NCBI RefSeq assembly: GCF_001428505.1
Contig: NZ_LMHU01000006.1
Location: 310,712 to 374,711, forward strand
Origin: Terrabacter sp. Root181
GTDB lineage: Bacteria > Actinomycetota > Actinomycetes > Actinomycetales > Dermatophilaceae
Direction of reading: 5' to 3'
DNA: 64,000 nt
Shown here: piece by piece, positions 34,954 to 51,805 of the stretch
Position numbering within the stretch: the first letter of the stretch is position 1
Layout of the letters: every line of letters starts with the position of its first letter
Translations under genes and position numbers: made by a program
The notes under the pieces: model-generated
Databases searched by the model: none
What the model was told of the DNA's origin: nothing
Seen by the model: the letters and a program-made list of their open reading frames with translations, nothing else

Positions 34954-34991
34954 CGGTGGCCTCTCGGGTCGTTCGTGTGGGGAGCTCGTAC

Positions 34992-35028: not shown

Positions 35029-35055
35029 ATACGACCGAGGTGGTGCGGTGGCGCG

Positions 35056-36357: not shown

Positions 36358-36426
36358 GGATGGTGCCTTTCCCTGTGGTGGTGGGTTGGGGTCGTTGGTA
36401 TGGATCGGCCTGCGGCAGAGCAGGAC

Positions 36427-37359
36427 TCAGCTCTTCACGGCCCCCGCCGTGAGGCCCTTGATCATCTGCCGCTGGAGGAAGAGGAACAGCACGAGGATCG
36501 GCAGCATCGCCAGGACGGTGCCGGCCATGACCGGCCCCCAGTTGGTGACGCCGTCGTTGTTCTGGAGGAACGTCAGACCGACGGGCAGCGTGGCCGTCGA
36601 CTCGTCGTCGGCCATCAGGAACGGCCAGAGGTACTCGTTCCACTCGTTGACCACCGTGATGAGCGCGAACGCCACCAGCGTCGGCCACGACATGGGCATG
36701 ACCACGCGCCACAGCAGCTTCATCGGCCCCGCCCCGTCGAGGCGGGCGGCCTCGATGATCTCTCCGGGCAGGTTGAGGAACTGGTTGCGCATGAGGAAGG
36801 TGCCGAAGGCGACACCGGCCAGCGGGATGATGATGCCCTGGTAGGTGTTGCGCCAGCCGAGCTGCGCGACGAGCGCGTAGTTGCTGATGACGGTGATCTG
36901 GTTGGGCACCATCAGGGCCGCGATGACGACGAGGAAGACGATCGAGCGCCCCGGGAAGCGCAGCAGCGACAGGGCGTACGCGCTGATGACGCCGAGGATG
37001 ATCTTCGCGAGCGACGTCGCGGACGTGATGAGCACCGAGTTGCGGACGTAGTCGAAGAACGGGATGCGGGTCGTCAGCTCGCTGTAGTTCGCGGTGGTGG
37101 CGGGGTCGGGCCACCACTGCGCCGGACGGACGTAGATGTCGCCGCGCTCCTTGAACGACGTGATGAGGATCCAGAAGAGCGGGACGGCGACGACGAGGAC
37201 GACGAGGACCATGCCGGCGTATCCCGCTGCGGTCCAGAGCGGTCCACGGTTGTGGGTCGACGCCTCCACGTTGTGCGACGCGCGTCGGCGCCGACGCCGG
37301 GTGGGCGCCTCAGGTGCCTTCTCGTCGTCGAGGGTCCCGAGGATGGTGGACGTGCTCAT
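36427..37359 (-). CDS. ugpE: ABC transporter permease, UgpE/MalG type
   Basis: A 310-aa permease with a positively charged N-terminus (RRRRRRASHNVEAS) and six transmembrane helices. The cytoplasmic coupling (EAA) loop reads EIIEAARLDGAGPMKLLWRVVMP. Its ATG overlaps the upstream permease stop (37356-37359). The two permeases form a heterodimer with UgpC. A 69-nt gap precedes ugpB. Confidence 0.9.
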   Translation of the reverse strand: MSTSTILGTLDDEKAPEAPTRRRRRRASHNVEASTHNRGPLWTAAGYAGMVLVVLVVAVPLFWILITSFKERGDIYVRPAQWWPDPATTANYSELTTRIPFFDYVRNSVLITSATSLAKIILGVISAYALSLLRFPGRSIVFLVVIAALMVPNQITVISNYALVAQLGWRNTYQGIIIPLAGVAFGTFLMRNQFLNLPGEIIEAARLDGAGPMKLLWRVVMPMSWPTLVAFALITVVNEWNEYLWPFLMADDESTATLPVGLTFLQNNDGVTNWGPVMAGTVLAMLPILVLFLFLQRQMIKGLTAGAVKS

Positions 37360-38318
37360 GCCTTCTTCCCCCTGTCCATGAAGCGCACCTGGACGACCGT
37401 GACGGCGAGCAGGATGACGAACATGACCGTGGCGACCGTGGCGCCGTAGCCGGCGCGCTGGTTGACGAACGTCTCCTGGTAGACCTGGTAGACGAGGGTG
37501 GTCGTGGCATTGCCCTGTGGACCGCCTCGGGTCATGACGTTGATGATGTCGAAGACCTGCACCGAGCTGAGCAGCACCGTGATCGACAGGAAGAAGGTCG
37601 TCGGCCGCAGCTGTGGCATGAGGACCCGGCGGAAGCGGGTCCAGGCCGACGCCCCGTCGATCTCGGCCGCCTCGTCGAGGTCGGCGCGCCGGCCCTGGAG
37701 GGCGGCCAGGTAGATGACGAACGTGTAGCCGATGTTCTTCCAGATGTAGGTCACGGTCACCATGAACAGGGCCCATCCGGGCTCCTGGTAGAAGTCCGGG
37801 ACCCCGACGCCGATGCGGACCAGCAGGTCGCGGATGAGGCCGTAGTTGGGGTCGAAGACGAACTGGAACGCGATGCCGATCGCGGCGCCCGAGATGACGA
37901 ACGGCGCGAACACGACCGAGCGCACGAGGTTGCGGCCCCTGAGCTTCTGGTCGAGCAGCAGCGCGAGGCCGAGCCCGACCGCCATCGAGATGCCGACCGT
38001 CGCGACCGTGAAGACCAACGTGTTGCCCACGATGATCTTCGTGTCGTCACGCCCGAACCACTCGATGTAGTTCGACAGGCCCACGGGGTTGGCGATGGGC
38101 GAGGAGACGTTCCAGTCGGTGAACGACAGCCTGATGTTGTCGAGCAGCGGACGGTAGGTGAAGACGATGAGGAGCACGAGGTTGGGCAGGAGCAGGAGGG
38201 CCGCGAGCGACCACTCCCAGGCCCGTCCGCTCGACCGTCGCGGGGGTGGCCCGACCTCGGGCGGGGGTCCCCCGGTTCCGGGCGTGGCGCTGCGGGGATG
38301 GGTCACCGATGACTGCAC
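37356..38318 (-). CDS. ugpA: ABC transporter permease, UgpA/MalF type
   Basis: A 320-aa permease with six hydrophobic helices after a proline-rich cytoplasmic N-terminus (TGGPPPEVGPPPRRSS). The coupling loop is DEAAEIDGASAWTRFRRVLMPQL. The track start is GTG 38318; GTG four codons later (VTHPRSATPG) is also possible. First gene of the ugpA-E-B-C-Q operon. Confidence 0.9.
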   Translation of the reverse strand: MQSSVTHPRSATPGTGGPPPEVGPPPRRSSGRAWEWSLAALLLLPNLVLLIVFTYRPLLDNIRLSFTDWNVSSPIANPVGLSNYIEWFGRDDTKIIVGNTLVFTVATVGISMAVGLGLALLLDQKLRGRNLVRSVVFAPFVISGAAIGIAFQFVFDPNYGLIRDLLVRIGVGVPDFYQEPGWALFMVTVTYIWKNIGYTFVIYLAALQGRRADLDEAAEIDGASAWTRFRRVLMPQLRPTTFFLSITVLLSSVQVFDIINVMTRGGPQGNATTTLVYQVYQETFVNQRAGYGATVATVMFVILLAVTVVQVRFMDRGKKA

Positions 38319-38364: not shown

Positions 38365-39423
38365 TCAGGCATTCAACGCGTGTCTGAACTCCTGTCGCGA
38401 CGGGTGCTCGCGGCGCACGACGGGCGCGACGTCGGCGAAGAACCGATCGATGCTGCGTCGCGTGACGGCCTCCGGTAGGCCCGGCACGTCGAGCGAGACG
38501 CCCGAGAGCTCGTGGCCGAACGCCTCGCGGTACCGACCGATCTTGTCGACGACCTCGGCGGGCGAACCGATGAGCGCGGAGCTGTCCCGGGCGTACTCCT
38601 CGACGGTCGTGAAGGGCAGCCGGTTGTGGACCGCGCCGGGTGAGCGCCGGAACGCCTCGAAGGCAGGCTCGTAGAGGCGCAGCGCCGCCTGGGTCGTGTC
38701 GGCGACGAGCAGGCCGAGGAACCCGGCACCGACGACCGCGTCCGCCGGGTCGTGGCCGTGCGCCTCCCACCGCTCGCGGTAGTGACGCACGAGGGCTGCG
38801 TACTTCGTTAGTGGGTGGAAGCCGTTGGCGGAGAAGAGCGGGTCGCCCCAGCGCGCCGCGAGCTCGGTCGACTCGGTGGAGCTGGCGGAGCCGTGCCAGA
38901 CGGGAATCGGCTGCTGGAGCGGCCGCGGCTGCGTGGTCGCGTCGACGAGCGGGGGCCGGAACCGGCCTGACCACGTCACGCGCTCCTCGCGCCACAGCCG
39001 CCGGAGCAGCTCGTACTTCTCGGCGTTGCGTTCCCACTGCCCCTCGAGGTCGAGCCCGAAGAGGGCGTTCTGGTCCGGGTCGTTGCCCTTGCCGATGACG
39101 ACGTCGAGCCGTCCGCCGCTCAGGTGGTCGAGGGTGGCGTAGTCCTCGGCGACGCGGACCGGGTCGAGGAGCGAGAGCACCGTGACGGTCGTCATGAGGC
39201 GGATGCGAGTGGTGCGCGCCGCGAGGTGGGCGAGGACGACGGGCGGCGAGGAGGAGACGAAGCGCTGGGCGTGCCGCTCCCCCACGCCGAACGCGTCGAA
39301 CCCGAGCTGTTCGGCCCACTCGGCCTGGTGCGCGACGTGCTCGAAAGCCTGCGTCTGGGTGCGCGCGACTCCGGTGACCGGGTCGGGGCTCGTGTCGAGC
39401 AGCGTGTAGGTGGCGAACCTCAT
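38365..39423 (-). CDS. LLM-class flavin-dependent monooxygenase
   Basis: A 352-aa luciferase-like TIM-barrel protein (MRFATYTLLDTSPDPVTG; GFDAFGVGERHAQRFVSSSPPVVLAHLAA; DHLSGGRLDVVIGKG; IPVWHGSASS). The family uses reduced FMN or F420 to cleave or oxidise C-S, C-N or ketone bonds. Last of nine overlapping genes; ATG 39423 overlaps the DUF1684 stop by 4 bp. The upstream FMN-reductase/GNAT fusion is the probable source of FMNH2. It is only distantly similar to the LLM protein at 40187, so the two probably act on different intermediates. Confidence 0.88.
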   Translation of the reverse strand: MRFATYTLLDTSPDPVTGVARTQTQAFEHVAHQAEWAEQLGFDAFGVGERHAQRFVSSSPPVVLAHLAARTTRIRLMTTVTVLSLLDPVRVAEDYATLDHLSGGRLDVVIGKGNDPDQNALFGLDLEGQWERNAEKYELLRRLWREERVTWSGRFRPPLVDATTQPRPLQQPIPVWHGSASSTESTELAARWGDPLFSANGFHPLTKYAALVRHYRERWEAHGHDPADAVVGAGFLGLLVADTTQAALRLYEPAFEAFRRSPGAVHNRLPFTTVEEYARDSSALIGSPAEVVDKIGRYREAFGHELSGVSLDVPGLPEAVTRRSIDRFFADVAPVVRREHPSRQEFRHALNA

Positions 39424-40190
39424 GCCGGCCGCTTCTCCCCTGCCGTGACGGGGACGGCGATGCGGTTGCCCGTGACGGGCCCCGGGCACGTGCCATGGGC
39501 CGTGAAGGCGAAGGGAAGGTTGACCGCGCGGTTGAAGTCGACGACGACGTTGCCGTCGGGGTCCGGCGCCGACGTCGTGACGGTGCGCCAGGGCGCCGAG
39601 GCATCACCGTTCGTCGTGTCGTGGAAGAGCAGCCCCAGGCCGTCTCCGGCCGCGACCGCGCTGAGTCGGTGGCGCACGCCGTCGATGTCGACGTCGACCG
39701 TGCCGACGACGGTGGCGTGCTGCACGAGGTCGTCACGCGCGGTGCGCACCGCCACCCGCGCCGGGCGGTCGGACGGCGTGAACCGGCCGGGTCGCACCCA
39801 GTCGGGGTCGTGCTCCCACGTCGGCACGCCGCGGAAGCCCAACCGCGTCGGTGCCTGTGGGTCACGGGTGCGCACGGCGAGCCTCCCGCCCCTTCGGAGC
39901 AGCTCGACGACGCGGTCCCCGTGCCTCACCCAGAGTCGCGAACCCGACTCCTCGACGTCCGCCGTGGCCCGTCCGGCGATCGGTTCGTCCCCGACCCGGA
40001 GGGACTCACCGGGTTCCGCCTCGACATGGGCTCCGGAGTCGTCCGCCCACCAGCGGCCCGGGAGGCCGGGCAGGCTCGCCGCCTGGTCAGGGAGCCAGGC
40101 GAACGCGGTCAGCGAGAGCCAGCCGTGCTCCTGGGCGAGGTCGGTCTCCCGCGCGGTGCGCCACGCGAGCCACTCGTCCGTGGCGCTCAT
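39420..40190 (-). CDS. DUF1684 protein
   Basis: A 256-aa protein with the DUF1684 signature: LAWRTARETDLAQEHGWLSLTAFAWL at the N-terminus and ATVVGTVDVDIDGVRHRLSAV, LLFHDTTNGD, VVVDFNRAVNLPFAF, TCPGP towards the C-terminus. It is a beta-rich soluble protein with no known activity. Sharing ATGA overlaps with an LLM monooxygenase on each side, it is probably a required partner or a lyase/hydrolase of the same pathway. The cysteine in FTAHGTCPGP is worth noting as a potential functional residue. Confidence 0.85.
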   Translation of the reverse strand: MSATDEWLAWRTARETDLAQEHGWLSLTAFAWLPDQAASLPGLPGRWWADDSGAHVEAEPGESLRVGDEPIAGRATADVEESGSRLWVRHGDRVVELLRRGGRLAVRTRDPQAPTRLGFRGVPTWEHDPDWVRPGRFTPSDRPARVAVRTARDDLVQHATVVGTVDVDIDGVRHRLSAVAAGDGLGLLFHDTTNGDASAPWRTVTTSAPDPDGNVVVDFNRAVNLPFAFTAHGTCPGPVTGNRIAVPVTAGEKRPA

Positions 40191-41332
40191 GCGACGGCCG
40201 CCCGGTCGGCCGTGTCGGCCGTGTCGGCCGTGGCCGCGGCCGCCTCCCGACGCGCGACCTCGTCGCGCACGAGCGGGATGACGTGCCGCCCGAAGTCCAC
40301 GGCGTCGTCGTAGAGGTGGTAGCCGCGGGCCGAGAAGATCCGCACCCCGAGGTCGTAGTAGTCGAGCAACGCCGCTGCGACGGTCTCGGGGGTGCCGACG
40401 AGGGCCGTGGAGTTCCCGCCTCCCCCCGTGGCGGCCGACGTCGCGGTCCAGAGGGCACGGTCGTGGCGCTCCCCCGACTCCGCGGCCGCCAGCAGCCGCT
40501 GCGACCCTGCGTTCTCGGGCTGGGAGCCGTTGCGGCGCAAGCGTCCCCGCGAAGCAGAGCCTCCGGCGGCTCTGTGCGCCCGGATGTCGCCGAGGGTGCG
40601 CTCGGCCTTGTCCCAGGCCAGCTCGTCCGTGGCTCCGAGGATCGGCCGGAAGGCGACCTGGATCGTCGGCAGGGCACGCCCGGCATGGGCGGCGGCAGCG
40701 CGGATCGTCTCGATCTGCTCCGCCGTGCCGGCGAGCGGCTCGCCCCACAGCGCGAAGACGTCAGCCTCCTGCGCACCGACGGCGTATGCCGCCGGGCTCG
40801 ACCCGCCGAAGGAGATCCGCGGGCGCGGGGACTGGAGCGGCTTGATGTCGGCGAGGAAGCCCTCGAAACGGTAGTGCTCGCCGTCGAAGTCGAACGGCTC
40901 GTCGCTCGTCCACGCCTGCTTGAGGATCTGGATGAACTCCCTCGTGCGGGCGTACCGGGCGTCCTTGTCGAGGTGGTCACCCTCCGCGGCCTGGTCCGCG
41001 GTGCTGCCTCCGGTGATGACGTGCACCTCGAAGCGGCCGTCGCTGATGTGGTCGAGCGTGGCGAAGGTCTTCGCCGTCAGGGTGGGGTAGGCCGTGTTGG
41101 GCCGGTGCGCGACGACGAGGTTGAGCCGGTCGGTGTTCGCCGCGACGTGGGCGGCGACCTGTGCGGGGTCGGGTGAGCCGGAGTGGTAGGCGAAGAGGAC
41201 GCGGTCCCAGCCGTTGTCCTCGTGGGCGCGGGCGAGCTTCGTGGCGTACGACAGGTCGAGGGCGCCCGCGCTGCGTGCGGTCGTCTCCGTGCCGTCGTGG
41301 TTGGCGGCGATGCCGAGGAACTCAACTGGCAT
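40187..41332 (-). CDS. LLM-class FMNH2-dependent monooxygenase, SsuD-like
   Basis: A 381-aa alkanesulfonate-monooxygenase-type protein (VEFLGIAANHDGTETT; DNGWDRVLFAYHSGSPDPAQVAAHVAANTDRL; LDHISDGRFEVHVITGG; RISFGGSSPAAYAVGAQEADVFALWGEP; NSTALVGTPETVAAALLDYYDLGVRIFSARGYHLYDDA). SsuD relatives release sulfite or an aldehyde from organosulfur compounds. A short insertion, RAAGGSASRGRLRRNGSQP, falls around residues 255-275 over a DNA palindrome (near 40551-40578). It overlaps the upstream FAD/NAD(P) gene by 11 bp. Confidence 0.9.
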   Translation of the reverse strand: MPVEFLGIAANHDGTETTARSAGALDLSYATKLARAHEDNGWDRVLFAYHSGSPDPAQVAAHVAANTDRLNLVVAHRPNTAYPTLTAKTFATLDHISDGRFEVHVITGGSTADQAAEGDHLDKDARYARTREFIQILKQAWTSDEPFDFDGEHYRFEGFLADIKPLQSPRPRISFGGSSPAAYAVGAQEADVFALWGEPLAGTAEQIETIRAAAAHAGRALPTIQVAFRPILGATDELAWDKAERTLGDIRAHRAAGGSASRGRLRRNGSQPENAGSQRLLAAAESGERHDRALWTATSAATGGGGNSTALVGTPETVAAALLDYYDLGVRIFSARGYHLYDDAVDFGRHVIPLVRDEVARREAAAATADTADTADRAAVA

Positions 41333-43325
41333 GACGGTGGTCCTTCTCTCTCGGGGTGTCTCGGGGGTCGTGCTGCGGTCGGTGGGCGTCGTCGTGGTCC
41401 CGCACGTGGACCGGTGCCCTGCGTGGCGGTCGGTGCGACGAGGAGCTGATGAGGTGCGCGGGCGTGGTGCGCCCTGCCAGGGCGACCGTGAGCAGGTCTC
41501 GGGCGACGGCGTCGTTCTGGCGGAACCCCGGCCCGTTGAAGCGGGGCCGGGAGAAGCCTCCGGCGCCGACGGACCCCGACACCGCGGGGCCGACGAGGTA
41601 GCGGTGCGGGTGCACGCTGCCGTCGGCACGGACGGCCCGCGCCCGGGCGTCGTCGACGAGCTGCCCCGCGCCGAGAGCGGTCCCGTCGGAAGCCGTGACG
41701 GGCCGCGAGCGCAGCTCGCCCGAGGCCAGCAGCCCGGCGACGAGGGGGTCGGTGACGAGGGCGCTGTCGGGTCGGGGCAGCCTCGCGTCGACGGCTGCCC
41801 GGGCCCGCACCTCACGGTCTCCGGAGCGCCCGACGAAGGCACCGTCCTCGATGACGAGCTCGAGGTGCGGGCCGAGGAACCGGACGATGCCCGCCCGGTG
41901 CAGCGCCAGCAGCTCGGCGAGCCGACGCGGCGGAGGTCCGCTGGCCAGGAACGAGAAGAGCCCGTGGAAGTGCCCCTCCACGTGCCGCACCCGGTCCTCG
42001 TCGAGGAGGCGACCGGTCACGACGAGCTCGGTCAGGACGGCATACACCGCGAGGAGCGTGTCGAAGACGGCCCGGTCGCTCGACCGCGACGGGTCGGCGC
42101 GACGGGTCAGGTCGTGTCCGACGTGCTCTGCGACGAGGCGCTCCACCTCGTCGGGCGACGTCCCGTCGTGGAGGACGGCGTCGAGCGGCCGGTCGATGCG
42201 GTGGATGTCGAAGACGTCCTCGGGGTCGCTCAGGTGCGCCACGGCGACGGCCGTGAGCTCCCCGTTCGTGACGTCGGCCTTGGCGAGGGCGCGCTCGAGG
42301 GCCTCGAGGGTGCCTCGGGTCCGCTCCGGGTGGGCCTCGAAGAGCCGGCGGTAGTGCGCCGCCGCGAGCTCGAGCACGACGAGCGGCCAGACCTGGCTCC
42401 GGTAGTCGAGGACCGACGCGCCGCCGCCGAGGGTGGCGAGGCGCTCACGGGTCAGGTGTCGCAGCGGGGCCGGTCCGGCGACACCCTCGCGGACCTCGTA
42501 GCCGAGCTTGGCGTGGTAGGGCACGCCGCGACGTGACCCCACGTGGAGCACCGGCTCACGGCCGCTCGGGTGGTAGGTCAGCTGCGTGCCGTCGCCGGTG
42601 AACGTGCCGCCGCGGCCTTCGCCGAGAAGGACGACGAGGTCGACGAACGCCAGGCCCATCCCGCGGACGACGACGGGCTCCCCCGGCTGCAGCCCGTCGA
42701 GGTCGAGGTCGGCCGTGTGCCCCGGGGGGACGTAGGTGAGTCCATGTGCGGCCGCGACGTCGAGGAGACGTTGCTCGCCCGGGGCGGGAGCCTGGTCGAG
42801 ATACCCCTGCGCGAGCACGACGACGTCCGCCTCCAGGTGCCGCCCGTCGGCCAGGCCGACGCGTTGGGACCCGCCGCGGTCGACGAGTCCGACGGCCCGG
42901 CTCGCGTGGACGTGCACGCTGACGGCCTCCGGAAGGGAACCGACGACTCGTCCCCAGGCCCAGTCGAGGTAGTCCGCCTGGACGACGCGGGGCGCGAAGG
43001 AGCGGGCAGACAGCCCGGCCGCCGCGGCGCTCGCCTCGGGACCGGCCGCCCACTCGGACAGGGACGGCCCCGGCACGACCGGTCCCTCGCACGTGACCGA
43101 CTCGTCCGTGAAGACCGTGACGTCCTGCGCCTCGGAGTTCATCCAGAGCAGGGGCGACTGGGCTGCCCGCCAGATCCGACCGGTGCCCGGCGGGTGCGGG
43201 TCGACGACGTGCACCTCGACCCGCTCCCCCGGCGTGCCGACCACGCCCGCGTTGGCGCCGAGGCGCTCGACGAGGCCGAGCGCCCGCGGTCCGGCCCCCA
43301 CGACGACGATCCGTCGGCCGGTCAC
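41322..43325 (-). CDS. FAD/NAD(P)-binding protein (PF13454-type), 667 aa
   Basis: A large flavoprotein. The Rossmann fingerprint is VVVGAGPRALGLVERLG, followed by VVDPHPPGTGRIWRAAQSPLLWMNSEAQ and a second nucleotide-binding motif GEPVVVRGMGLAFVDLVVLLGEG split across residues. The C-terminal half is helical (VFDIHRIDRPLDAVL, GPGFRQNDAVARDLL) with a basic, His-rich tail. The family (often annotated as FAD-NAD(P)-binding) resembles N-hydroxylating monooxygenases; its substrate is unknown. The gene overlaps the reductase/GNAT fusion by 4 bp and the SsuD-like gene by 11 bp, so it belongs to the pathway. Confidence 0.87.
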   Translation of the reverse strand: MTGRRIVVVGAGPRALGLVERLGANAGVVGTPGERVEVHVVDPHPPGTGRIWRAAQSPLLWMNSEAQDVTVFTDESVTCEGPVVPGPSLSEWAAGPEASAAAAGLSARSFAPRVVQADYLDWAWGRVVGSLPEAVSVHVHASRAVGLVDRGGSQRVGLADGRHLEADVVVLAQGYLDQAPAPGEQRLLDVAAAHGLTYVPPGHTADLDLDGLQPGEPVVVRGMGLAFVDLVVLLGEGRGGTFTGDGTQLTYHPSGREPVLHVGSRRGVPYHAKLGYEVREGVAGPAPLRHLTRERLATLGGGASVLDYRSQVWPLVVLELAAAHYRRLFEAHPERTRGTLEALERALAKADVTNGELTAVAVAHLSDPEDVFDIHRIDRPLDAVLHDGTSPDEVERLVAEHVGHDLTRRADPSRSSDRAVFDTLLAVYAVLTELVVTGRLLDEDRVRHVEGHFHGLFSFLASGPPPRRLAELLALHRAGIVRFLGPHLELVIEDGAFVGRSGDREVRARAAVDARLPRPDSALVTDPLVAGLLASGELRSRPVTASDGTALGAGQLVDDARARAVRADGSVHPHRYLVGPAVSGSVGAGGFSRPRFNGPGFRQNDAVARDLLTVALAGRTTPAHLISSSSHRPPRRAPVHVRDHDDAHRPQHDPRDTPREKDHRHAS

Positions 43326-44452
43326 GCCGCACCCCAGTCCCGGTACGAGCGCAGCCCGGGCGACCCGGCGGACACGCCGGGCACGGCGGGCACGGCGGAC
43401 GCGCCCGATAGGACCGTCCCCGCCGGAAGCTCCTTGTCGAAGGCGTGCGGGCCGATCGACTCGGGGTCGGCGTGCAGGTCGAAGGCCGGGAGGTAGCCGG
43501 CTGCGAGGTAGAGCGCGCGTGCCTCGGGCTGGCGTGGCCCCGTGGTGAGGTGGATCCTCCGGTACCCGAGCCCCGCGGCGGCCTTCTCGAGCTCGATCAG
43601 GACCCTGCGGGCGAGTCCCTGACGACGGAACTGGGCGTGGGTCCAGACCCGCTTCACCTCGGCGGTCTCGTCGTCGTGGCGGCGGATCGCCCCGCCGGCG
43701 ATCGTCTGCCCGCCTCGGAGCACGACGACGAACGCCCCGTGGGGTCCCTCGAAGTCGCTGACCGGGACCTCTGTCAGCTGCGTGTGGGGCGTCGACAGCC
43801 CGTAGCGCGTGCCGTACTCGACGACGAGGTCCTCGAGGAGCGGGGCCGCGACGTCGTCGTGCGGGGACACGCGCAGCACGACGTCGTCGTCGTCGAGGGC
43901 CGGCACCTTGTCGCGGCGGTGCCGCGCGACGTGCGTGAGGAACGACTCCGTGACCTGGTGGAGGGCTCGGGAGGCGGACTCCGAGAGCAGCACGCCGCCG
44001 TCGGCGGGGAAGACCTGCACGTCGGAGGCCAGCACGAACCAGCCCTGGGTCACGTGCTCCGCGCCGAGCGAGACGAGCACCGGCCGCAGGGCGTAGTCGA
44101 CGGCGAGCACGTGCGCCGCACTGCCGCCGGTGGCGACGGGAAGCACCGACTTGCCCCGCAGTGCGTACTGCGGGAGCAGGTCGAGCAGCGTCTTGAGCAG
44201 CCCGGTGTAGGCCGCCTTGTAGACCGGTGTCGTGACGACGACGGCGTCCGCCGCCTCGATCTGCGCCACGACCGCCGCGATCTGCGGGTCGGTGGCGTCG
44301 GCACGCAGCAGCGCCTCCGGGGGCAGGTCGCGCACGACGACGCGCTGGACGGCGTGGCCGCGCACGTCGAGACGGCGTTCGATGTGGCCGAGGACGGCAT
44401 CCGTGCGGGACGCCACCGACGGGCTCGAGGCGATGGTGACGATGGTGGCCAT
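43322..44452 (-). CDS. NADPH-dependent FMN reductase fused to GNAT acetyltransferase
   Basis: A 376-aa fusion. Residues ~1-185 are an SsuE/MsuE-type FMN reductase (VTIASSPSVASRTDAVLGHIE; ADAVVVTTPVYKAAYTGLLKTLLDLLP; VLPVATGGSAAHVLAVDYALRPVL). Residues ~205-340 are a GNAT domain with acetyl-CoA motif HAQFRRQGLARRVLIELEKAA and QPEARALYLAAGYLPA. The C-terminus is a Pro/Ala/Gly tail. The reductase would feed FMNH2 to the two LLM monooxygenases; the GNAT would N-acetylate the substrate, as SnaA does before S-alkyl-cysteine oxidation in Bacillus. It starts 9 nt after the second binding-protein stop. Confidence 0.88.
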   Translation of the reverse strand: MATIVTIASSPSVASRTDAVLGHIERRLDVRGHAVQRVVVRDLPPEALLRADATDPQIAAVVAQIEAADAVVVTTPVYKAAYTGLLKTLLDLLPQYALRGKSVLPVATGGSAAHVLAVDYALRPVLVSLGAEHVTQGWFVLASDVQVFPADGGVLLSESASRALHQVTESFLTHVARHRRDKVPALDDDDVVLRVSPHDDVAAPLLEDLVVEYGTRYGLSTPHTQLTEVPVSDFEGPHGAFVVVLRGGQTIAGGAIRRHDDETAEVKRVWTHAQFRRQGLARRVLIELEKAAAGLGYRRIHLTTGPRQPEARALYLAAGYLPAFDLHADPESIGPHAFDKELPAGTVLSGASAVPAVPGVSAGSPGLRSYRDWGAA

Positions 44453-44461
44453 GTCAGCGCC

Positions 44462-45493
44462 TCACTTCGCCGAGGTCTCGGTGGGCTTGGGCAGCCCGGC
44501 GGGGTTGACCTCGGAGGCGGGCACCGCCTCCGCGGTGAGGCCCCACCGGGCGAGGACCTTGCCGTAGCTGCCGTCCGCGATGGCGGCGTTGATGGCGTCC
44601 GCGATCGGCTTGGCCAGGCCGTTGCCCTTCTTCGTCAGCACACCGACCTTCCCGGGGATCGGGAAGCTCGACGACACGGTGCCGACGATCTGCGTCCTGC
44701 CCGCCGTGACGACGTGGTAGGTCGCGGTCGGGTTCGGGCCGAGGTAGAGGTCGATGCGACCGGAGTCGAGGGCGAGGTAGTACTCCGTCGTGCCCTGGTA
44801 GTAGACGAGCTCGGCGGGCGCGCGTCCGGCCTTCTCGTTCTCCTCGTTCCAGCGCAGCAGGATCGCCTCCTGCAGGGTCCCCGACCCGACGGCCACCTTC
44901 TTGCCCGAGATGTCGGCCGGCCCCCGCACCTGCAGCGTCGAGCCCTTCTTGGCCTCGAACGCGTGCAGCCCGAGCCGGTACGTCGCGAAGTCGTACTTCT
45001 CCTTTCGCTCCTCGGAGACGCCGACGTTGGAGATCGCGACCTGGTACTTGCCCGAGTCGGTGCCGATAAAGAGGTTCTCCCAGCTCGTCGTCTGCACGTC
45101 GGCCTCGAGGCCGAGGACGTCGGCGACGAGGTGGGCGACGTCGACCTCCACCCCGATCGGCGTCGTGTTGTCGTCGGCCGTGAACGCCAGAGGGGGTATG
45201 CCGCCGCCCGCGCCGCCGCTGCCGATGACCAGGGTGCCCCTGGCCTTGACGTCGGCCGGCAGGGTCGCGGCGATCTCCGGGTGCAGGGTGCCCGCCGGGC
45301 GCTTCGCGTTCGCCGAGGTGTCGAACGAGACGGGGAGGACCTTCGAGTCGCCGAGTGCCTTCGGGTCCACCTGCGTCGTCCCGGTGCTGACCGGGTCGGC
45401 GCAGGCTCCGAGCACACCGACGGTCGACAGGAGGGCGGCCGCGACGACGATCGCACGGCGGCCAGCAGGCGCATGGGTCTTGCTGTGGTGCAT
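44462..45493 (-). CDS. ABC transporter solute-binding protein, family 3 (copy 2)
   Basis: A 343-aa lipoprotein with signal RRAIVVAAALLSTVGVLGAC (lipobox LGAC). The mature part is a periplasmic-type amino-acid-binding protein (GIPPLAFTADDNTTPIGVEVD; TTSWENLFIGTDSGKYQVAISNVGVSEERKEKYDF; AVGSGTLQEAILLRWNEENEK; VGVLTKKGNGLAKPIADAIN). It is closely similar to the neighbouring copy at 45526. ATG 45493 is chosen because the signal begins there. No second permease pair exists for it, so both proteins presumably dock on the same transporter. Confidence 0.9.
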   Translation of the reverse strand: MHHSKTHAPAGRRAIVVAAALLSTVGVLGACADPVSTGTTQVDPKALGDSKVLPVSFDTSANAKRPAGTLHPEIAATLPADVKARGTLVIGSGGAGGGIPPLAFTADDNTTPIGVEVDVAHLVADVLGLEADVQTTSWENLFIGTDSGKYQVAISNVGVSEERKEKYDFATYRLGLHAFEAKKGSTLQVRGPADISGKKVAVGSGTLQEAILLRWNEENEKAGRAPAELVYYQGTTEYYLALDSGRIDLYLGPNPTATYHVVTAGRTQIVGTVSSSFPIPGKVGVLTKKGNGLAKPIADAINAAIADGSYGKVLARWGLTAEAVPASEVNPAGLPKPTETSAK

Positions 45494-45525
45494 GATGATT
45501 CGTCTCCTGGGGTGGTGTGGGTGGC

Positions 45526-46530
45526 TCAGTCGGTCTTGGGCAGGCCGGGCGGGTTGACCTCGGACTTCGCGAGCCCCTCGGTGCTGAGGTTCCAGCGCTG
45601 GAGGACCTTCGCGTAGCTGCCGTCGGCGATCGCCGAGTTGATGGCGGCGGCGTAGGGCGCGGCGAGGCCGGAGCCCTTCCTCGTCAGCACGGCGATGAGT
45701 CCCTGCAGGGACTCCCCGGCGCCCGAGAAGTGACCGATGGCCTCGGTCTGCCCGGCGGTCGCGACGTGGTAGGCGACGCTCGGGTTGGGGCCGAAGTACG
45801 CGTCGATCCGGTGCGACGACAGCGCGAGGTAGTAGTCCGTCTGCGACTGGAAGTACTTCACCTCGGCGGGTGCGAGCCCGGCCTTGATGTTGGCCTCGTT
45901 CCAGTCGAGGAGGATCTTCTCCTGGTTGGTGCCGGAGCCGACGGCGATGGTCTTGCCGGCGATGTCCCTGCCGCTCGTGACCTTCCACGTGCCGCCCTTG
46001 GGCGCCTCGAAGGCGAGGTCGTCCTTGCGGTAGGTCGCGAAGTCGTACTTCTCCTTGCGCTCCTCCGTGACCGTGACGTTCGTCAGGGCCACGTCGTAGC
46101 GACCGGAGTCGATGCCGAGGAAGACGTTCTCCCAGCTCGTCGCGGGCGTCTCGACCCTGAGGCCGAGCTTGTCGGCGAAGAGGTGCGCGAGGTCGACCTC
46201 GACGCCGATGACGGTCTTGTCGTCGTCGGCCGTGAAGACGAGCGGCGGCGTGCCGCCACCCGCCCCGGCGTTGGCGGCCGTGATCGTGCCCCGCTCCCGG
46301 ATGGCCGCCGGCAGCAGGGCCGCGGCCTGCTCGTCCTTCGTGGTCGTGATGCGCTTCTGGTCCGGCGAGGTGTTGACGCCCGCGACGGCTGCCGCGGCCG
46401 GGTCGGCCGAAACGCCCGAGCTGGCCTCTGCGGCTCCGGAGCAGCCGGTGAGCGCGACGGAGGCGGCGACCGCGAGGGCGGTGACGGCATACGTCGTCGG
46501 GCGGTGGACGGTGTGGGGACGTGCGGGCAT
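45526..46530 (-). CDS. ABC transporter solute-binding protein, family 3 (copy 1)
   Basis: A 334-aa lipoprotein with signal YAVTALAVAASVALTGC (lipobox LTGC). Mature domain motifs: GTPPLVFTADDDKTVIGVEVD, ATSWENVFLGIDSGRYDVALTNV, TVTEERKEKYDFATYRK, AVGSGTNQEKILLDWNEANIK. Compared by eye it is highly similar to copy 2 along its length. ATG 46530 is preferred to the longer start at 46566 because GAGGAG lies just upstream and the signal peptide follows directly. A GC-rich 88-nt gap separates it from the ATPase gene. Confidence 0.9.
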   Translation of the reverse strand: MPARPHTVHRPTTYAVTALAVAASVALTGCSGAAEASSGVSADPAAAAVAGVNTSPDQKRITTTKDEQAAALLPAAIRERGTITAANAGAGGGTPPLVFTADDDKTVIGVEVDLAHLFADKLGLRVETPATSWENVFLGIDSGRYDVALTNVTVTEERKEKYDFATYRKDDLAFEAPKGGTWKVTSGRDIAGKTIAVGSGTNQEKILLDWNEANIKAGLAPAEVKYFQSQTDYYLALSSHRIDAYFGPNPSVAYHVATAGQTEAIGHFSGAGESLQGLIAVLTRKGSGLAAPYAAAINSAIADGSYAKVLQRWNLSTEGLAKSEVNPPGLPKTD

Positions 46531-46586
46531 GAGGACTCCTCTCGGCACCCGATGGGTGCGAGTCATGGATGGCCGGTACGGCCTGA

Positions 46587-46613
46587 GGGGTGGTGGGGTG
46601 GTGGGGTGGTGGG
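46587..46613 (+). other. Potential G-quadruplex between ATPase and binding-protein genes
   Basis: On the plus strand GGGG-TGGT-GGGG-TGGT-GGGG-TGGT-GGG spans 46587-46613. Four G-tracts with uniform 4-nt loops satisfy the usual G4 pattern. The strand is the template for the minus-strand operon, so it could slow polymerase or favour an R-loop rather than act in the mRNA. Confidence 0.6.
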
Positions 46614-46618
46614 CGGCG

Positions 46619-47380
46619 TCAGAGGACGCGGTCGAGGAAGGCGCGGGTGCGTGCGTGGGCGGGGTGGTCGATGACCTGCTCGGGCGGTCCCTGCTCGACG
46701 ATGCGGCCCCCGTCGAGGAAGACGACCGTGTCGGCGACCTCGCGGGCGAAGCCGACCTCGTGCGTCACGACGACGAGGGTGGCACCGTCGCGGGCGAGCT
46801 CCTTGATGACGGCGAGGACCTCGCCGACGAGCTCGGGGTCGAGGGCTGAGGTGGGCTCGTCGAAGAGGATGACGTCGGGGTGCAGGGCCAGGGCGCGGGC
46901 GATGGCGACCCGTTGCTGCTGGCCACCGGAGAGCTGACGCGGATAGGCGGCCGCCTTGTCCCCCAGACCGACCCGCGCGAGCAGGGCCCGGGCCTCGACC
47001 TCCACCTCGGACCGTCGCCGGCGCTGCGCCGACACCGGCGCCTCGACGACGTTCTCGAGGACGGTGAGGTGCGGGAAGAGGTTGAACTGCTGGAAGACGA
47101 AGCCGATGCGGCTGCGCTGGCGCAGGATGTCCCGCTCGGGCAGCTCGTGCAGGCGCTCACCCACCTGCCGGTAGCCGATGAGCGTCCCGTTGACGCGCAC
47201 CTGACCCCGGTCGATCTTCTCCAGGTGGTTGATGGTCCGCAGCAGCGTGGACTTGCCCGATCCCGACGGACCGAGGATGACGGTCACGGTGCCCTCGGCG
47301 AGCTCGAGGTCGACGTCGTCGAGCACCCGGTGGCCCCCGAACGACTTCGTGACGCCGCGCAGGTCGACGACGGCGGTCAT
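46619..47380 (-). CDS. Polar-amino-acid-type ABC transporter ATPase
   Basis: A 253-aa ATPase: Walker [10 protein letters not shown] (37-45), signature [15 protein letters not shown], Walker [15 protein letters not shown], switch THEVGFARE. Strongly TcyC/GlnQ-like, the class used for cystine, glutamine and related amino acids. ATG 47380 overlaps the permease stop by 4 bp. Together with the permease and the two binding proteins it forms the import part of the operon. Confidence 0.93.
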
Positions 47381-48441
47381 CGGACAGCCTGCTCGGGACG
47401 ACGGGTGGCCTGCGATGCCTGCGTGGCGAACCCGGCCCACCGGGCACGCAGCCGCTGGAGCGGCGTCGGGGGCAGGGAACGGGCGCTGCCCCGGGCGAAG
47501 TGGCGCTCGACGTAGTACTGGCCGACCGACAGCAGCGTCGTGAGGATGATGTACCAGACCGTCGCCACGAGCAGGAGGGGCACGACCCGGGAGTTGCGGC
47601 CGTAGATCACCTGCACCTGGTAGAAGAGCTCCGGGATCGCGAGGACCGAGACGATCGAGGTGCCCTTGAAGAGGCTGATGACCTCGTTCGCGGCGTTGGG
47701 CAGGATCGAGCGCATCGCCTGCGGCAGCACGATCCTCGTGAGCTGACGGCGCCGCGGGATACCTAGCGCCGACGCCGCCTCGCGCTGCCCCTCGTCGACG
47801 GAGAGGATGCCTCCGCGGATGATCTCTGCCGCGTAGGCCGCCTGGTGCAGGGCGAGGCCGAGCACGGCCGCGCCGAGGGCCCCGAGGAGGTCGTTGGTCT
47901 CGACGCTGGCGAAGGACGGGCCGAACGGCACGCCGACGCTGATGGTCTGGTAGAGGTAGGCGATGTTGAACCAGAAGAGCAGCTGCACGATGAGCGGGAT
48001 CGACCGGAACGCCCAGATGTAGGCCCACGCCACGGTCCGCAGGAACGCGTTGGACGAGAGACGCATCGCCGCGAGGACGAGCCCCAGGGCGAAGCCGGCC
48101 ACGGTCCCGAGGACGGTTAGCTGGATGGTCGTGCCGAGGGCCCGGATGACGGTCTCGGTCGCGAAGTAGCGACCGAAGGTCGGCCAGTCCCAGCCGGGGT
48201 TGGTCGCCAGGCCGTTGACGAACATCGCGACGAGCAGGCCCACTCCGGCGACGCCGACCCACGTCCAGGGGTTGCGACGCGGGACGACGGCGAGGACCGG
48301 CCGGTCGACGGACGGCGTGACGGTGTGCGGGGCTGGTGGGGTCGCAGGGTGGTCCGCGCCGGTCGGCGGGACGGGCTCGGTCGCCCGTGGCGACGGAGGT
48401 GCCGTCGGCGCCGAGCGCCGGACGGTCGAGAGTGATGGCAC
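47377..48441 (-). CDS. Polar-amino-acid-type ABC transporter permease
   Basis: A 354-aa permease of the HisM/GlnP family with an extended Pro/Ala-rich N-terminus (~60 residues), about six helices, and coupling loop [25 protein letters not shown]. Only one permease gene is present, so a homodimer is expected. GTG 48441 ([10 protein letters not shown]) is preferred to GTG 48471 because CAGGAG lies 6 nt upstream. First structural gene of the operon, about 160 nt downstream of the leader peptide. Confidence 0.88.
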
Positions 48442-48468
48442 GTGGGGCTCCTGGAGGGATCGCTCGGG

Positions 48469-48490
48469 CACCCGTCACCGGGGACGGGTG
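48469..48490 (-). promoter_or_regulatory. Hairpin just upstream of the operon's first structural gene
   Basis: CACCCGTC (48469-48476) and GACGGGTG (48483-48490) form an 8-bp stem with a 6-nt loop. It lies 27 nt before the GTG start of the permease and could restrict ribosome access or serve as the 3' half of an attenuator. Confidence 0.4.
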
Positions 48491-48564
48491 GCAGGGAGGC
48501 GGCGTGCGCCGCGTGGGGTGCGTGCTGGCGCCTGTCCCTGCGGGATCACCGCTGGGGCCATGGG

Positions 48565-48592
48565 CGCCGACCGGCCGGCCGAGGAGTCGGCG
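48565..48592 (-). terminator. Candidate attenuator hairpin after the leader peptide
   Basis: CGCCGAC (48565-48571) and GTCGGCG (48586-48592) pair over 7 bp around a 14-nt loop that itself contains CGGCCGGCCG. It begins 12 nt past the leader-peptide stop, as expected of an attenuator. There is no T-tract. Confidence 0.35.
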
Positions 48593-48604
48593 ACCGAGAC
48601 GTCG

Positions 48605-48688
48605 TCAGGGACGACAGAGCGCGCTGGACACGCGGAGCAGGTCGACGTGGCGGCGTAGCACCAGGTGGGTGCTCGTCGTGCGCGCCAT
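48605..48688 (-). CDS. 27-aa leader peptide ahead of the organosulfur operon
   Basis: A short ORF starting ATG 48688 with GAGGAG 6 nt upstream and ending HVDLLRVSSALCRP then stop at 48605. The first half is MARTTSTHLVLRR. It matches in size and ending the short leader peptides I recall ahead of sulfur-assimilation genes in streptomycetes and other actinobacteria. A single Cys codon sits third from the end, where ribosome stalling could sense cysteine supply. The next gene downstream is the ABC permease, about 160 nt away. The function is inferred from type and position. Confidence 0.7.
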   Translation of the reverse strand: MARTTSTHLVLRRHVDLLRVSSALCRP

Positions 48689-49130
48689 GTCGGCTCCTCG
48701 GTCCGGGACCCGACCACAGCGAGTCCGCGCTTGCCGTCGCCTGCTGGCGACGGCCTGGTCCTCACCCGGAGCACCCCGCCGCGGTGGAGGGTTGCTGTCC
48801 AGCGAGCCGGGGCTTGGCACTGGAGCTCTTGACCTGTGGACGACACTACGAAGGGCGCGTGGCACCCGTCAATCGCCGAATCGGGCACTTCCTCGGCACC
48901 AGGACCGGGTGCGCACCCGCCGTCGGAACCTTGTATTCCCTTGCCTCCCAATGGATTTCCAGCATGGCAACGGACTGTCGACGGACTTAATTCCTAGTAA
49001 TCCAGTCGGAAATAGGCTCAGGCCCTTCTTGCATCCTGAGACAGCAGGCTCGCCTCGGCGCGTCGCCCACCGTCCCGCAGCCTCGACGACCCCCGCCACT
49101 CCCGGGCTACCACCGGGTAGTCTCACGCGC
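48689..49130. other. Gene-free divergent promoter region between leader peptide and acyltransferase
   Basis: A 442-nt stretch with no supportable gene. The part at about 48930-49030 is unusually AT-rich for this window and contains the imperfect palindrome ATTCCTAGTAAT (48990-49001). Promoters for the leftward operon and for the rightward acyltransferase pair are expected here, but I could not fix their boxes by eye. Confidence 0.5.
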
Positions 49131-50354
49131 GTGACTGCCGGACCAGGTCGCACTGACGCGCCCGCCACGACCCCACCGACACCCGTCGGCCCCGGGTCGA
49201 CCCGACGCATCGCCGCGCTCGACGGGCTGCGCGGGATCGTCATCGTCCTCGTCGTGCTCGGTCACGCCAACGGCAACCTGTGGCCCACCGACCTCGTCCT
49301 CCCCGTCCCGGTCCTCGGCGGCTTCTTCGGAGGTGGCGCCGTGTCGCTGCTCTTCGTCATCGGCGCCGTCATCGTCACGCGGGGCCTGCTGCGGGAGCGC
49401 GAGCTCGGCGTCATCGACCCGGTGCGCTTCTACGCCCGACGCGTGGTGCGCCTCGGGGTGCAGCTCGTCCCCTTCACGGTCGCGATCCTCGTGCTGCACC
49501 GCATCGACCCCACCGACACGACGAGCGCCCACACGACGAACCAGTCGGTGCTCAATGTCCTGGCCTTCACGTGGAACACCTACACCGAGCAGCACCTCCT
49601 CGAGGCCCGCCCCGACTTCTTCCACCTCTGGTACCTCAGCGTCCAGCAGCAGTGCTACCTCCTGCTCCCACTCGTCGTCGTGCTGCTGGGTGCCCGTCGT
49701 CGTGCGCTCGCAGCCGCCCTCGCCGCCCTTTTCGTGGCCATCACGGTGTGGCGCTACCACGTCTTCGCGACAGACGGGTGGATCGTCGCGCACAGCTCCA
49801 CCACGACACGCTCCGACGGCCTCGTGCTGGGCGTGCTCGTCGCGGTGGTGCTGCCGTGGCTGGCGCCCCTGCGTCACCGGGCCGGGCATGCCATGACCGC
49901 CAGCGCCGTCGCCCTCGTCGTCCTCGTCGGCAGCCTCCAGGAGCTCCCGCCCTTCCAGTACCTCCACGAGTGGGGCATCGTCTTCACGCTCGTCGGCGGG
50001 ATCCTCGTGGCGACGATCTTCCTCGACCCCGCTCCCACGGTCGCGTCGCGGGCCCTGTCCACCCGGCCGCTCGGCTACCTCGGGCGCGCGTCGCTCGCCA
50101 TCTTCATCTGGCACCTCCCGGTCTTCGCCCTCGTCGCCCGGCACACGACCACGTGGCAGTGGCCGACCCGGACTCTCGTCGCCGCCCTCGTGCTCGGCGT
50201 CGTCGTGTGGTCCTCCCACCGCTTCATCGAGGAGCCCACCCGGATCTGGCTGGCCACCCACCTCCGGCCGCGCCGGCTCGAGACCGCTCCCGGGCCGGTG
50301 CCGGCCAGGACGGCACGCCCGACGTCGCCCGCCGCCCCGGCGGGCGAGCCGTGA
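49131..50354 (+). CDS. Acyltransferase-3 family membrane protein (copy A)
   Basis: A 407-aa polytopic protein with about ten hydrophobic helices. The family's opening motif is LDGLRGIVIVLVVLGHANG, with conserved Arg and His, followed by the charged ARRVVRLGVQLVPF segment and HLWYLSVQQQCYLLLPLVVVL. These enzymes O-acylate cell-surface glycans or antibiotics from acyl donors in the cytoplasm. GTG 49131 is preferred because upstream codons run into a disordered segment. The stop overlaps the next start (GTGA), so copies A and B are coupled. Confidence 0.87.
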   Translation: MTAGPGRTDAPATTPPTPVGPGSTRRIAALDGLRGIVIVLVVLGHANGNLWPTDLVLPVPVLGGFFGGGAVSLLFVIGAVIVTRGLLRERELGVIDPVRFYARRVVRLGVQLVPFTVAILVLHRIDPTDTTSAHTTNQSVLNVLAFTWNTYTEQHLLEARPDFFHLWYLSVQQQCYLLLPLVVVLLGARRRALAAALAALFVAITVWRYHVFATDGWIVAHSSTTTRSDGLVLGVLVAVVLPWLAPLRHRAGHAMTASAVALVVLVGSLQELPPFQYLHEWGIVFTLVGGILVATIFLDPAPTVASRALSTRPLGYLGRASLAIFIWHLPVFALVARHTTTWQWPTRTLVAALVLGVVVWSSHRFIEEPTRIWLATHLRPRRLETAPGPVPARTARPTSPAAPAGEP

Positions 50355-51742
50355 GCACGAAGGGGGCGGCGGCGAACACCTCGCCGCCGACCCGACCGGA
50401 GCACCCGGCCAGCGCGTCCCGCCTCGCGGTGCTCGACGGCTTCCGCGGGATCGCGATCGTCCTCGTCGTCCTGTCGCACCTCGGCAAGGTCTGGCCGGAG
50501 CAGCTGCGCCCCGACCTCGGCCCGCTCGACGGGCTGTTCGCCGCCGGGAGCATCGGGGTGACGATCTTCCTCGTCGTCGGTGGGTTCCTCGTCACCCGGG
50601 GCCTGCTCGCGGCCCGGTCCCGCGACGGGCTCCGCGGCCCGGTGGTCTCGTTCACCCGCCGGCTCGTGAGGATCAGCCTGCAGGTCTACCTCCTGCTCGC
50701 GGTCGTCGCCGTCGTCGCGGAGATCGACCCGACCGACCCGAACTCCCGCTCCGCCACGAACAGCTCGCTGCTCGCCGTGGCGACGTACTGGTGGAACGTC
50801 TACGTCCGCAACCACGCCCTCGACGCCCGCAGCGACCTCGGCCCCCTCTACTACCTCAGCATCGAGCTGCAGTTCTACGTCGTCCTTCTCGTCCTCGTCC
50901 TGCTGCTCGCGCGACACCGCCGGCTCCTGGCCGGCCTGCTCGCCGCGGCCATCCCGGTCGTCACGGTCTGGCGCTGGCACGTCTACGACACGCAGGGCTG
51001 GTTCGTCGCCTCGCTCATGACCACGACCCGCATGGACGGGCTGCTCTACGGCGCGCTGGCGGCCGTGGTCGTCGACCTGCTCCCGGGCAGGGTCCGGGCC
51101 GGTCTCCGTCGCCAGTCGGCGACCCTGGTGGGCGGCTCGCTCCTCGTCGTCGTGGGCGTCGTGGTCTCGTGCGCGTTCTACGACATCGGGGCCTACTTCA
51201 AGGTCCAGGGCATCGTGCTCACGGTCGCGTGCGCCCTGCTCGTCCTCGGCTGCGCGAGCCCCCTCGACCCGCAGGCGTATGCCGTCCGCCTCCTCTCGGA
51301 GCGCCGGCTCGCGTGGCTCGGGGTGGCGTCGCTCAGCATCTTCGCGTGGCACGTGCCTGTCTTCGAGCTCCTGATGCGCCACACGCCGGACTGGCCCCCG
51401 GCGGCACGCACCGCCGTCGCCCTCGGCCTCCTGGCCGCCGTCGTCCACCTCGTCGAGCGCTTCGTCGGGCGGCCGGTCACGGCCGTGGTCGGCCGCGTGG
51501 GCCGCACCGTGCGCCTGGCGGACCCGCCCGCCGTGGTGGAGCCGAGCCCTGGGCTGGTCCAGACCTCCCCTGCGCCGCAGCCGGCACCGACGCCGGCCGT
51601 GACCGGCTCGTCGACGAGCACCGCCCGACCCGGCCCCTCCCTGCGGCGCTCCTCGGGGACCGTCATCGCGGCCGTCGAGGCACCCGACGACTGGGACGAC
51701 GGGTTCGAGGACTACGACTACGACGGACCCGTCCGCGACTGA
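50351..51742 (+). CDS. Acyltransferase-3 family membrane protein (copy B)
   Basis: A 463-aa membrane protein with the same layout as copy A: LDGFRGIAIVLVVLSHLGKVWP, TRRLVRISLQVYLLLAVV, PLYYLSIELQFYVVLLVLVL, and about ten helices ending near VHLVERFVGRP. Unlike copy A it has a long C-terminal cytoplasmic extension, Pro/Ser/Thr-rich then strongly acidic (DDWDDGFEDYDYDG). The tail might bind partner proteins. Overlaps copy A by 4 bp. Confidence 0.87.
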   Translation: MSTKGAAANTSPPTRPEHPASASRLAVLDGFRGIAIVLVVLSHLGKVWPEQLRPDLGPLDGLFAAGSIGVTIFLVVGGFLVTRGLLAARSRDGLRGPVVSFTRRLVRISLQVYLLLAVVAVVAEIDPTDPNSRSATNSSLLAVATYWWNVYVRNHALDARSDLGPLYYLSIELQFYVVLLVLVLLLARHRRLLAGLLAAAIPVVTVWRWHVYDTQGWFVASLMTTTRMDGLLYGALAAVVVDLLPGRVRAGLRRQSATLVGGSLLVVVGVVVSCAFYDIGAYFKVQGIVLTVACALLVLGCASPLDPQAYAVRLLSERRLAWLGVASLSIFAWHVPVFELLMRHTPDWPPAARTAVALGLLAAVVHLVERFVGRPVTAVVGRVGRTVRLADPPAVVEPSPGLVQTSPAPQPAPTPAVTGSSTSTARPGPSLRRSSGTVIAAVEAPDDWDDGFEDYDYDGPVRD

Positions 51743-51770
51743 CCTCGTCCGCGACCGAGGGCCGGACGCA

Positions 51771-51805
51771 CGAGAGCCCCGGACCGTGACGGTCCGGGGC
51801 TCTCG
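51771..51805. terminator. Strong bidirectional terminator between acyltransferase B and rpsA
   Basis: Perfect 15-bp arms (51771-51785 and 51791-51805) enclose the 5-nt loop GTGAC. It is 29 nt past the acyltransferase stop and 20 nt past the rpsA stop, so it serves both convergent genes. Confidence 0.85.

Follow-up and report, generated by a model that had tools for sequence, protein, structure and literature searches.

In Bacillus subtilis, the system for S-alkyl-cysteines employs an importer with two binding proteins. The CmoO/CmoJ route by which these compounds are salvaged consists of N-acetylation, flavin mononucleotide (FMN)-dependent oxidation and cleavage of the C-S bond (excerpts of PMC10863075), and the yxe operon of the same species, which deals with S-(2-succino)cysteine, unites an ATP-binding cassette (ABC) importer, an acetyltransferase and an FMN monooxygenase in a single cluster (excerpts of PMC9706529). 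In mycobacteria, short open reading frames (ORFs) encoding cysteine-rich leaders precede sulfur genes (excerpts of PMC4633059). Here we describe a candidate sulfur-salvage operon of nine genes (g1 to g9), preceded by a leader peptide, in a 64,000-nucleotide stretch of DNA from Terrabacter sp. Root181 (contig NZ_LMHU01000006.1, positions 310,712 to 374,711), hereafter the window, to which coordinates refer unless another locus is named.

With moderate confidence, we read this operon as a salvage system for a sulfur-containing amino acid taken up from outside, probably a cysteine bearing an S-substituent or the oxidised form of such a compound, with the operon gated by S-adenosylmethionine (SAM) and cysteine. 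Organosulfur scavenging had been proposed in the original prediction, and this part is strengthened by a SAM-IV riboswitch aptamer upstream of the leader, which that prediction lacked, by SAM-IV aptamers ahead of metX and a desulfurase gene elsewhere in the genome, by the cysteine-linked family of the leader, and by CmoJ-like luciferase-like monooxygenases (LLMs) in relatives; acylation by a GNAT domain, the identity of the substrate and the sequence of the steps stay predictions. Each part of the system is of a known kind; what is unusual is the stacking of a SAM aptamer on a cysteine-type leader, an enzyme with an N-hydroxylase fold (g6) encoded among sulfur genes, and the biased codon use of the leader. 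The stacking would amount to a two-input sulfur switch, in which the target of the riboswitch would be a leader peptide and not the gene directly, with two aptamer classes found in the same place. The gene set would tie an N-hydroxylase-fold flavoenzyme and a DUF1684 protein (g8) to the salvage of sulfur by actinobacteria common in soil; we know of no role in sulfur salvage for either.

A SAM-IV aptamer and a leader peptide ahead of the operon

Two elements precede the first gene:

48722-48834, minus strand: SAM-IV riboswitch aptamer (RF00634), model positions 1-116; 107.3 bits, E 8.6e-19, gathering cut-off 38
48605-48688, minus strand: leader peptide of 27 aa, MARTTSTHLVLRRHVDLLRVSSALCRP, cysteine codon UGU; NCBIfam NF042934, 33.7 bits, cut-off 27

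The aptamer is complete and its end sits 33 nt upstream of the start codon of the leader; with our own SAM-IV model it scores 112.6 bits, although it is itself one of the 9 sequences of that model. Among the 150 of 2319 candidates scored, the genome has at least four SAM-IV sites, including the copy in the window. The other three precede metX, a gene for a SufS-family (SufS-like) desulfurase and a metY-like gene (L078, its identity read by eye), which start about 15-91 nt after their aptamers, as judged from rough gene starts, and no leader was found between aptamer and gene at any of these three sites. A table for Streptomyces lividans, in the excerpted part of PMC8079986, places SAM-IV ahead of a cysteine desulfurase gene as well. 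Because the other SAM-IV sites of the genome precede genes of this kind, control of the operon by sulfur is well supported, and both the binding of SAM by the element and its effect on expression are predicted.

The family NF042934 comprises putative leader peptides (cis_reg_atten), and the leader in the window is the sole match over its cut-off in the genome among the 150 of 236 candidates scored; with the Cys-rich leader models Ms4527A and Ms5788A it reaches 29.7 and 21.0, under the cut-off of 45. The leader resembles the mycobacterial cysteine-rich leaders in being a short ORF before sulfur genes and in belonging to the same broad NCBIfam group, but it has a single conserved UGU in place of a cysteine run, and a SAM aptamer precedes it (compared with excerpts of PMC4633059). 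The leader of Terrabacter sp. Root85 (L079) is an identical peptide, whose codons differ at 2 synonymous and 0 non-synonymous positions.

A pattern scan of the 121 loci around relatives of g6 picked up related short ORFs that share the ending H-[VI]-D-[LF]-x-R-...-C, with UGU as the cysteine codon in 72 of 74; under a slightly different pattern, UGU is found in 60 of 62 distinct DNA leader cores. UGU accounts for 404 of 3663 cysteine codons (11%) across the genes called for those loci plus three more loci of the window genome, a background that depends on a rough gene caller, and for none of the 4 cysteine codons in the operon's own genes. Since many of the leaders come from close relatives, and since the patterns demanded a terminal cysteine (or one next to that position), the UGU counts are not independent trials. 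Given a rule so close to a single codon, the cysteine arm is directly testable.

We surveyed the stacking of aptamer and leader in 124 loci, namely the 121 around g6 relatives together with L175-L177, using two aptamer models whose input, 9 and 12 sequences, came from these loci themselves; those sequences, themselves first found with Rfam, match by construction. Aptamer matches above 60 bits number 36, spread over 24 loci, and 14 of them have a leader within about 150 nt downstream (13 of the 124 loci). SAM-IV precedes the leader in nine cases at eight loci (the window, L079, L088, L090 twice, L091, L175, L176 and L177), and SAM-I does so in five cases at five loci, all belonging to one genus (L035, L036, L041, L042 and L044). 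In all five SAM-I cases the aptamer tail, GAUGGGAG, carries a Shine-Dalgarno-like GGGAG 5-7 nt upstream of the likely leader start, so that SAM would be able to mask the ribosome-binding site of the leader; the link of SAM-IV to leader translation is less plain than that of SAM-I. We propose that control would have two layers: high SAM is predicted to switch off the leader through the aptamer, and a shortage of cysteinyl-tRNA at the conserved UGU of the translated peptide is predicted to turn the operon on. To this may be added that in Nakamurella leprariae (L090:3786-4436) two divergent SAM-IV aptamers each have their own leader behind them.

Several observations weigh against this two-layer control. 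As regards the pairing, aptamer and leader do not occur together in this way at 111 of the 124 loci, and of the 36 strong aptamers 22 are not followed by a leader. Ten Kribbella-type loci (L080-L087, L089 and L092; nine from Kribbella and one from Streptomyces sp.) keep the leader with no aptamer match above 20 bits to either model, and L032, from a relative in the same family, has the aptamer with no leader found; aptamer and leader are thus each able to stand alone. As regards the cysteine codon, two of the leaders of L175-L177 have UGU, and the third (L176:13335-13376), ending in Cys-Cys with codons UGC UGC, is a clear exception to the pattern. Rare codons also occur at other residues, with GGU for glycine in 36 of 40 Streptomyces-type leaders (background 0.09) and CGA for arginine in 15 of the 62 leader cores (background 0.03), so that the preference for UGU does not in itself imply that cysteine is sensed; the bias could stem partly from a general effect of slow decoding or of RNA pairing. 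Moreover, no classical U-tract terminator was found after the leader, and the sequence that runs from just past the aptamer up to the start of the permease folds only mildly better than its shuffles, by a margin that does not persuade (z -1.5).

Some of the same evidence bears on an alternative in which SAM is the main signal, the leader does not sense cysteine and serves only to couple translation or as an RNA element, and the operon serves methionine supply or the removal of S-conjugates. The finding of two SAM aptamer classes ahead of the operon gene set would agree with this, as would the rare glycine and arginine codons of some leaders and the 3' half of the leader, which is nearly invariant in nucleotides across four close relatives and also fits an RNA constraint. 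However, the leader is retained in the Kribbella-type loci where no SAM aptamer was found, and all 62 distinct cores have a cysteine (which the pattern required there or adjacent), encoded by UGU in 60. We regard this alternative as unlikely. As for precedent, no title or abstract opening that we found in the open-licence literature describes an aptamer-plus-leader pair, which does not prove that none has been described.

Two further leader contexts were seen. Eight loci (L033, L034, L037-L040, L043 and L045) form a second type of g6 locus, with an HVDLCR..-ATC leader near g6 and, in 7 of the 8, a SAM-I copy kilobases away. In a Streptomyces locus (L104:656-1945), a DszC/SfnB-like gene, under both cut-offs, lies near another leader.

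The gene set and its proposed route

The nine genes, all on the minus strand, are as follows (equivalog and domain scores in bits):

47377-48441, minus strand: g1, polar-amino-acid ABC permease; PF00528; domain model TIGR01726 58.5, over the cut-off of 42.2
46619-47380, minus strand: g2, ABC ATPase; best NCBIfam match TcyN 316.8, under the cut-off of 406
45526-46530, minus strand: g3, family-3 solute-binding protein (SBP1); PF00497; best NCBIfam match cystine SBP 91.3, under 312
44462-45493, minus strand: g4, second family-3 solute-binding protein (SBP2); PF00497; cystine SBP 98.9, under 312
43322-44452, minus strand: g5, fusion of an SsuE-type FMN reductase and a GNAT acetyltransferase; TIGR03567 SsuE 199.5, over 164
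41322-43325, minus strand: g6, flavin adenine dinucleotide (FAD)/nicotinamide adenine dinucleotide phosphate (NADPH) monooxygenase of 667 aa with the L-aspartate N-hydroxylase fold; PF13454 (NAD_binding_9); 8cp2 476 bits
40187-41332, minus strand: g7, LLM monooxygenase (LLM1), SsuD/SfnG-like; below the SsuD and SfnG cut-offs; nearest PDB entry 7jv3
39420-40190, minus strand: g8, DUF1684 protein, one-cysteine variant; PF07920 114.6, over 25
38365-39423, minus strand: g9, LLM monooxygenase (LLM2), CE1758-like; TIGR04036 271.4, under the cut-off of 479; nearest PDB entry 2i7g

All nine ORFs and the leader lie where they were originally predicted, and domain scans agree with the families assigned to them. 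The genes had been said to overlap mostly by 4-11 bp, which is borne out at five of the eight junctions, the remaining three being gaps of 9, 32 and 52-88 bp; coordinates are those of likely starts, and SBP1 could alternatively start at 46566. According to the domain models, the permease and ATPase are nearest to importers of cystine and other polar amino acids; the best equivalog of g1 is cystine permease (142.7, under the cut-off of 300), and g4 also matches a model for kinase-fused SBPs (104.8, under 900). The GNAT half of g5 (PF00583, residues 233-320) has two PDB matches and no others, ysnE and a putative acyltransferase. Among the matches listed, the LLMs, the ATPase and the binding proteins pass no equivalog cut-off, and SsuE does pass its curated one.

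What the data show directly is the gene set, the aptamer, the conservation and codon bias of the leader and the modelled fold of g6, whereas the substrate, every reaction and the direction of both switches are predictions. The predicted route would run as follows. The ABC system of g1-g4, with its two binding proteins, would import a sulfur amino acid, a possible substrate for N-acetylation by the GNAT half of g5; the SsuE half of g5 would give FMNH2 to g7 and g9, which would oxidise the compound and cut C-S bonds; g6 would contribute an additional FAD/NADPH oxygenation (S- or N-oxidation), with DUF1684 as a possible auxiliary; and the sulfur species released would feed cysteine and methionine. 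The comparison with Bacillus that accompanied the original prediction is apt, since the proposed logic is like that of the CmoO/CmoJ route, with an acetyltransferase (the GNAT domain) in the cluster and a CmoJ-like LLM near g6 in many relatives. The Terrabacter operon adds g6, DUF1684 and the upstream SAM-IV aptamer and leader. With the yxe operon it shares the clustering of importer, acetyltransferase and FMN monooxygenase, but it has no YxeP-like deacetylase and no YxeK-type LLM, and instead carries one additional FAD enzyme and a pair of different LLMs.

Three points tell against a salvage route of this kind. The operon encodes no deacetylase, with 11 M20 matches elsewhere in the genome; g7 and g9 are under every equivalog cut-off among the matches listed; and no CmoJ-type LLM was found in the window genome, where the best match, at 34.5 bits, is g7 itself. 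If the route is Bacillus-like, then g7 or g9 must carry out the CmoJ step, because no CmoJ-type LLM was found. In one related locus, the CmoJ-like LLM has as its nearest PDB entry B. subtilis YtnJ (269 bits), which we take to be CmoJ.

The LLMs also raise the question of whether the operon scavenges alkanesulfonates or sulfones, with the amino-acid-type importer merely as the import route. Indeed, g5 is over the SsuE cut-off, and among solved structures g7 is nearest to SsuD and to methanesulfonate and dimethylsulfone monooxygenases, with 7jv3 as the nearest entry at 174 bits. However, g7 is far under the cut-offs for the SsuD subfamily (207.6 against 510), SsuD (TIGR03565, 205.5 against 518) and SfnG (TIGR04021, 152.8 against 383), the binding proteins are of the family-3 amino-acid type, and the established sulfonate route involves, to our knowledge, no GNAT. 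We consider this explanation quite improbable. As assignments for the single proteins, SsuD and SfnG were rejected for g7, and CE1758 for g9, on the scores given here and in the list.

For DUF1684, a thiol relay through CX7C has been proposed in Haloferax (excerpts of PMC9426492). In the window g8 has Phe in place of the first Cys; among 27 aligned DUF1684 proteins, CX7C is found in 19 and Phe...Cys in 8, all of the latter from g7-bearing loci. A wider count of 52 ORFs read from the loci, the window excluded, gave both cysteines in 35, none of which lies in a locus with a g7 match, and Phe or Tyr for the first Cys in 15 (13 Phe, 2 Tyr), all in g7 loci (12 among the 121, plus L175-L177), with 2 unreadable. 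Because the g7-linked clade has lost the first Cys, a two-cysteine relay through CX7C is unlikely there, and it would appear that g7 and g8 have changed together. The predicted model of g8 has a predicted local distance difference test (pLDDT) score of 95; a function from the fold was sought and dropped, the six PDB matches at E <= 0.001 being halophilic archaeal proteins without an assigned function.

The flavoenzyme g6

The FAD/NAD(P) protein, which had been noted to lack a counterpart in the Bacillus route, can now be placed: its fold is that of an aspartate N-hydroxylase, and its substrate site differs. A profile of 15 g6 relatives matches a single sequence in the PDB, 8cp2/8cp5, at the 476 bits listed above, and the predicted model of g6 (pLDDT 82.6) aligns with 8cp2 over its whole length at template-modelling (TM) scores of 0.80/0.88, the next different PDB protein following at E 2.1e-9. 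The 8cp2 protein is an L-aspartate N-hydroxylase of the FzmM/CreE type, in which aspartate is contacted by R13, R276, N413, R416 and R577 and sulfate by R266, R409, R412, N413 and R416 (excerpts of PMC10404684). R13, N62 and R577 are kept in all 15 family members, and R266 is replaced by Lys in all 15. In the window, by contrast, R276 corresponds to G284, N413 to V430 and R416 to E433, and R409 and R412 are both replaced by Ala; the number of the 15 members that retain the original residue is 0 at R276, 0 at N413, 6 at R416, 2 at R409 and 0 at R412, although the contact columns in that helix depend on the alignment. With two of the five named aspartate contacts (R13 and R577) kept, g6 was rejected as a true aspartate N-hydroxylase. 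From the kept core residues and the changed substrate contacts we infer that g6 retains the FAD/NADPH oxygenation core and would act on a different substrate, with S-oxidation and N-oxidation both possible. Its context is also distinct, a sulfur-salvage operon as against nitrosuccinate biosynthesis for the FzmM/CreE type (excerpts of PMC10404684).

One possibility is that, once the sulfur amino acid has been imported, g6 N-hydroxylates its amino nitrogen to give an oxime, nitroso or nitro compound, so that the route would pass through an N-oxidised intermediate and not plain S-oxidation. The identity of the nearest solved relative and the residues kept throughout the family (R13, R577 and N62, with Lys at R266) would be consistent with this, but the loss of R276, N413, R416 and the sulfate contacts R409 and R412 argues against it, and the GNAT of the operon, if acting first, would block the alpha-amine. 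On balance we find this possibility somewhat unlikely. A broader combination, in which serial sensors (SAM acting on leader translation, and cysteinyl-tRNA at UGU acting on the operon) were reached separately with SAM-IV and with SAM-I, and in which g6 oxidises the amino nitrogen within a C-S cleavage route, is in our view doubtful.

Distribution of the gene set and neighbouring genes

The search for the same gene order and leader in other actinobacterial genomes, suggested with the original prediction, found the nine-gene order exact, with leader and aptamer, in Terrabacter sp. Root85 (L079) and in another genus of the family (L175), and this recurrence indicates that the arrangement is more than chance. 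The gene set is patchy in the family: relatives of g7 at E<=1e-80 are found in 5 of 99 family genomes, counting that of the window, and one of the two other genomes of the same genus has no g7 relative at that threshold. L177, from the window's own genus, has g1-g8 with no g9 match, and L176 has no g5 match and is missing one SBP.

A complete set of permease, ATPase and SBP lies within 9.5 kb of the g6 relative in 61 of the 121 loci, with thresholds of our own choice. In these 61 transporter loci we found GNAT in 38, SsuE in 16, g7 in 22, g8 in 32, g9 in 17, a CmoJ-like LLM in 43 and a second, NtaA-type LLM in 44, as compared with 4, 4, 2, 17, 1, 19 and 24, respectively, in the 60 loci without a complete transporter; some contigs are short, and absences are therefore weak evidence. 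The counts for GNAT and for the CmoJ-like LLM speak for the salvage reading. Whether homologues fall into unrelated pathways, a point also raised with the original prediction, is thereby answered in part: since 60 of the 121 loci lack the transporter nearby and 17 of these still keep DUF1684, neither g6 nor DUF1684 is exclusive to the salvage route. All families occur together in 10 of the 121 loci, these being the window, L079 and eight Kribbella-type loci, with L175 as the eleventh; the eight Kribbella-type loci carry two extra NtaA-type LLM genes, one of them CmoJ-like.

Two neighbouring regions were read by eye. Upstream of the operon, on the plus strand (48336-51789), lie two long ORFs that appear to be paralogous membrane acyltransferases. 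About 46 bp downstream of g9, on the minus strand (34856-38318), are genes resembling a sugar-type ABC transporter, which probably form a separate unit.

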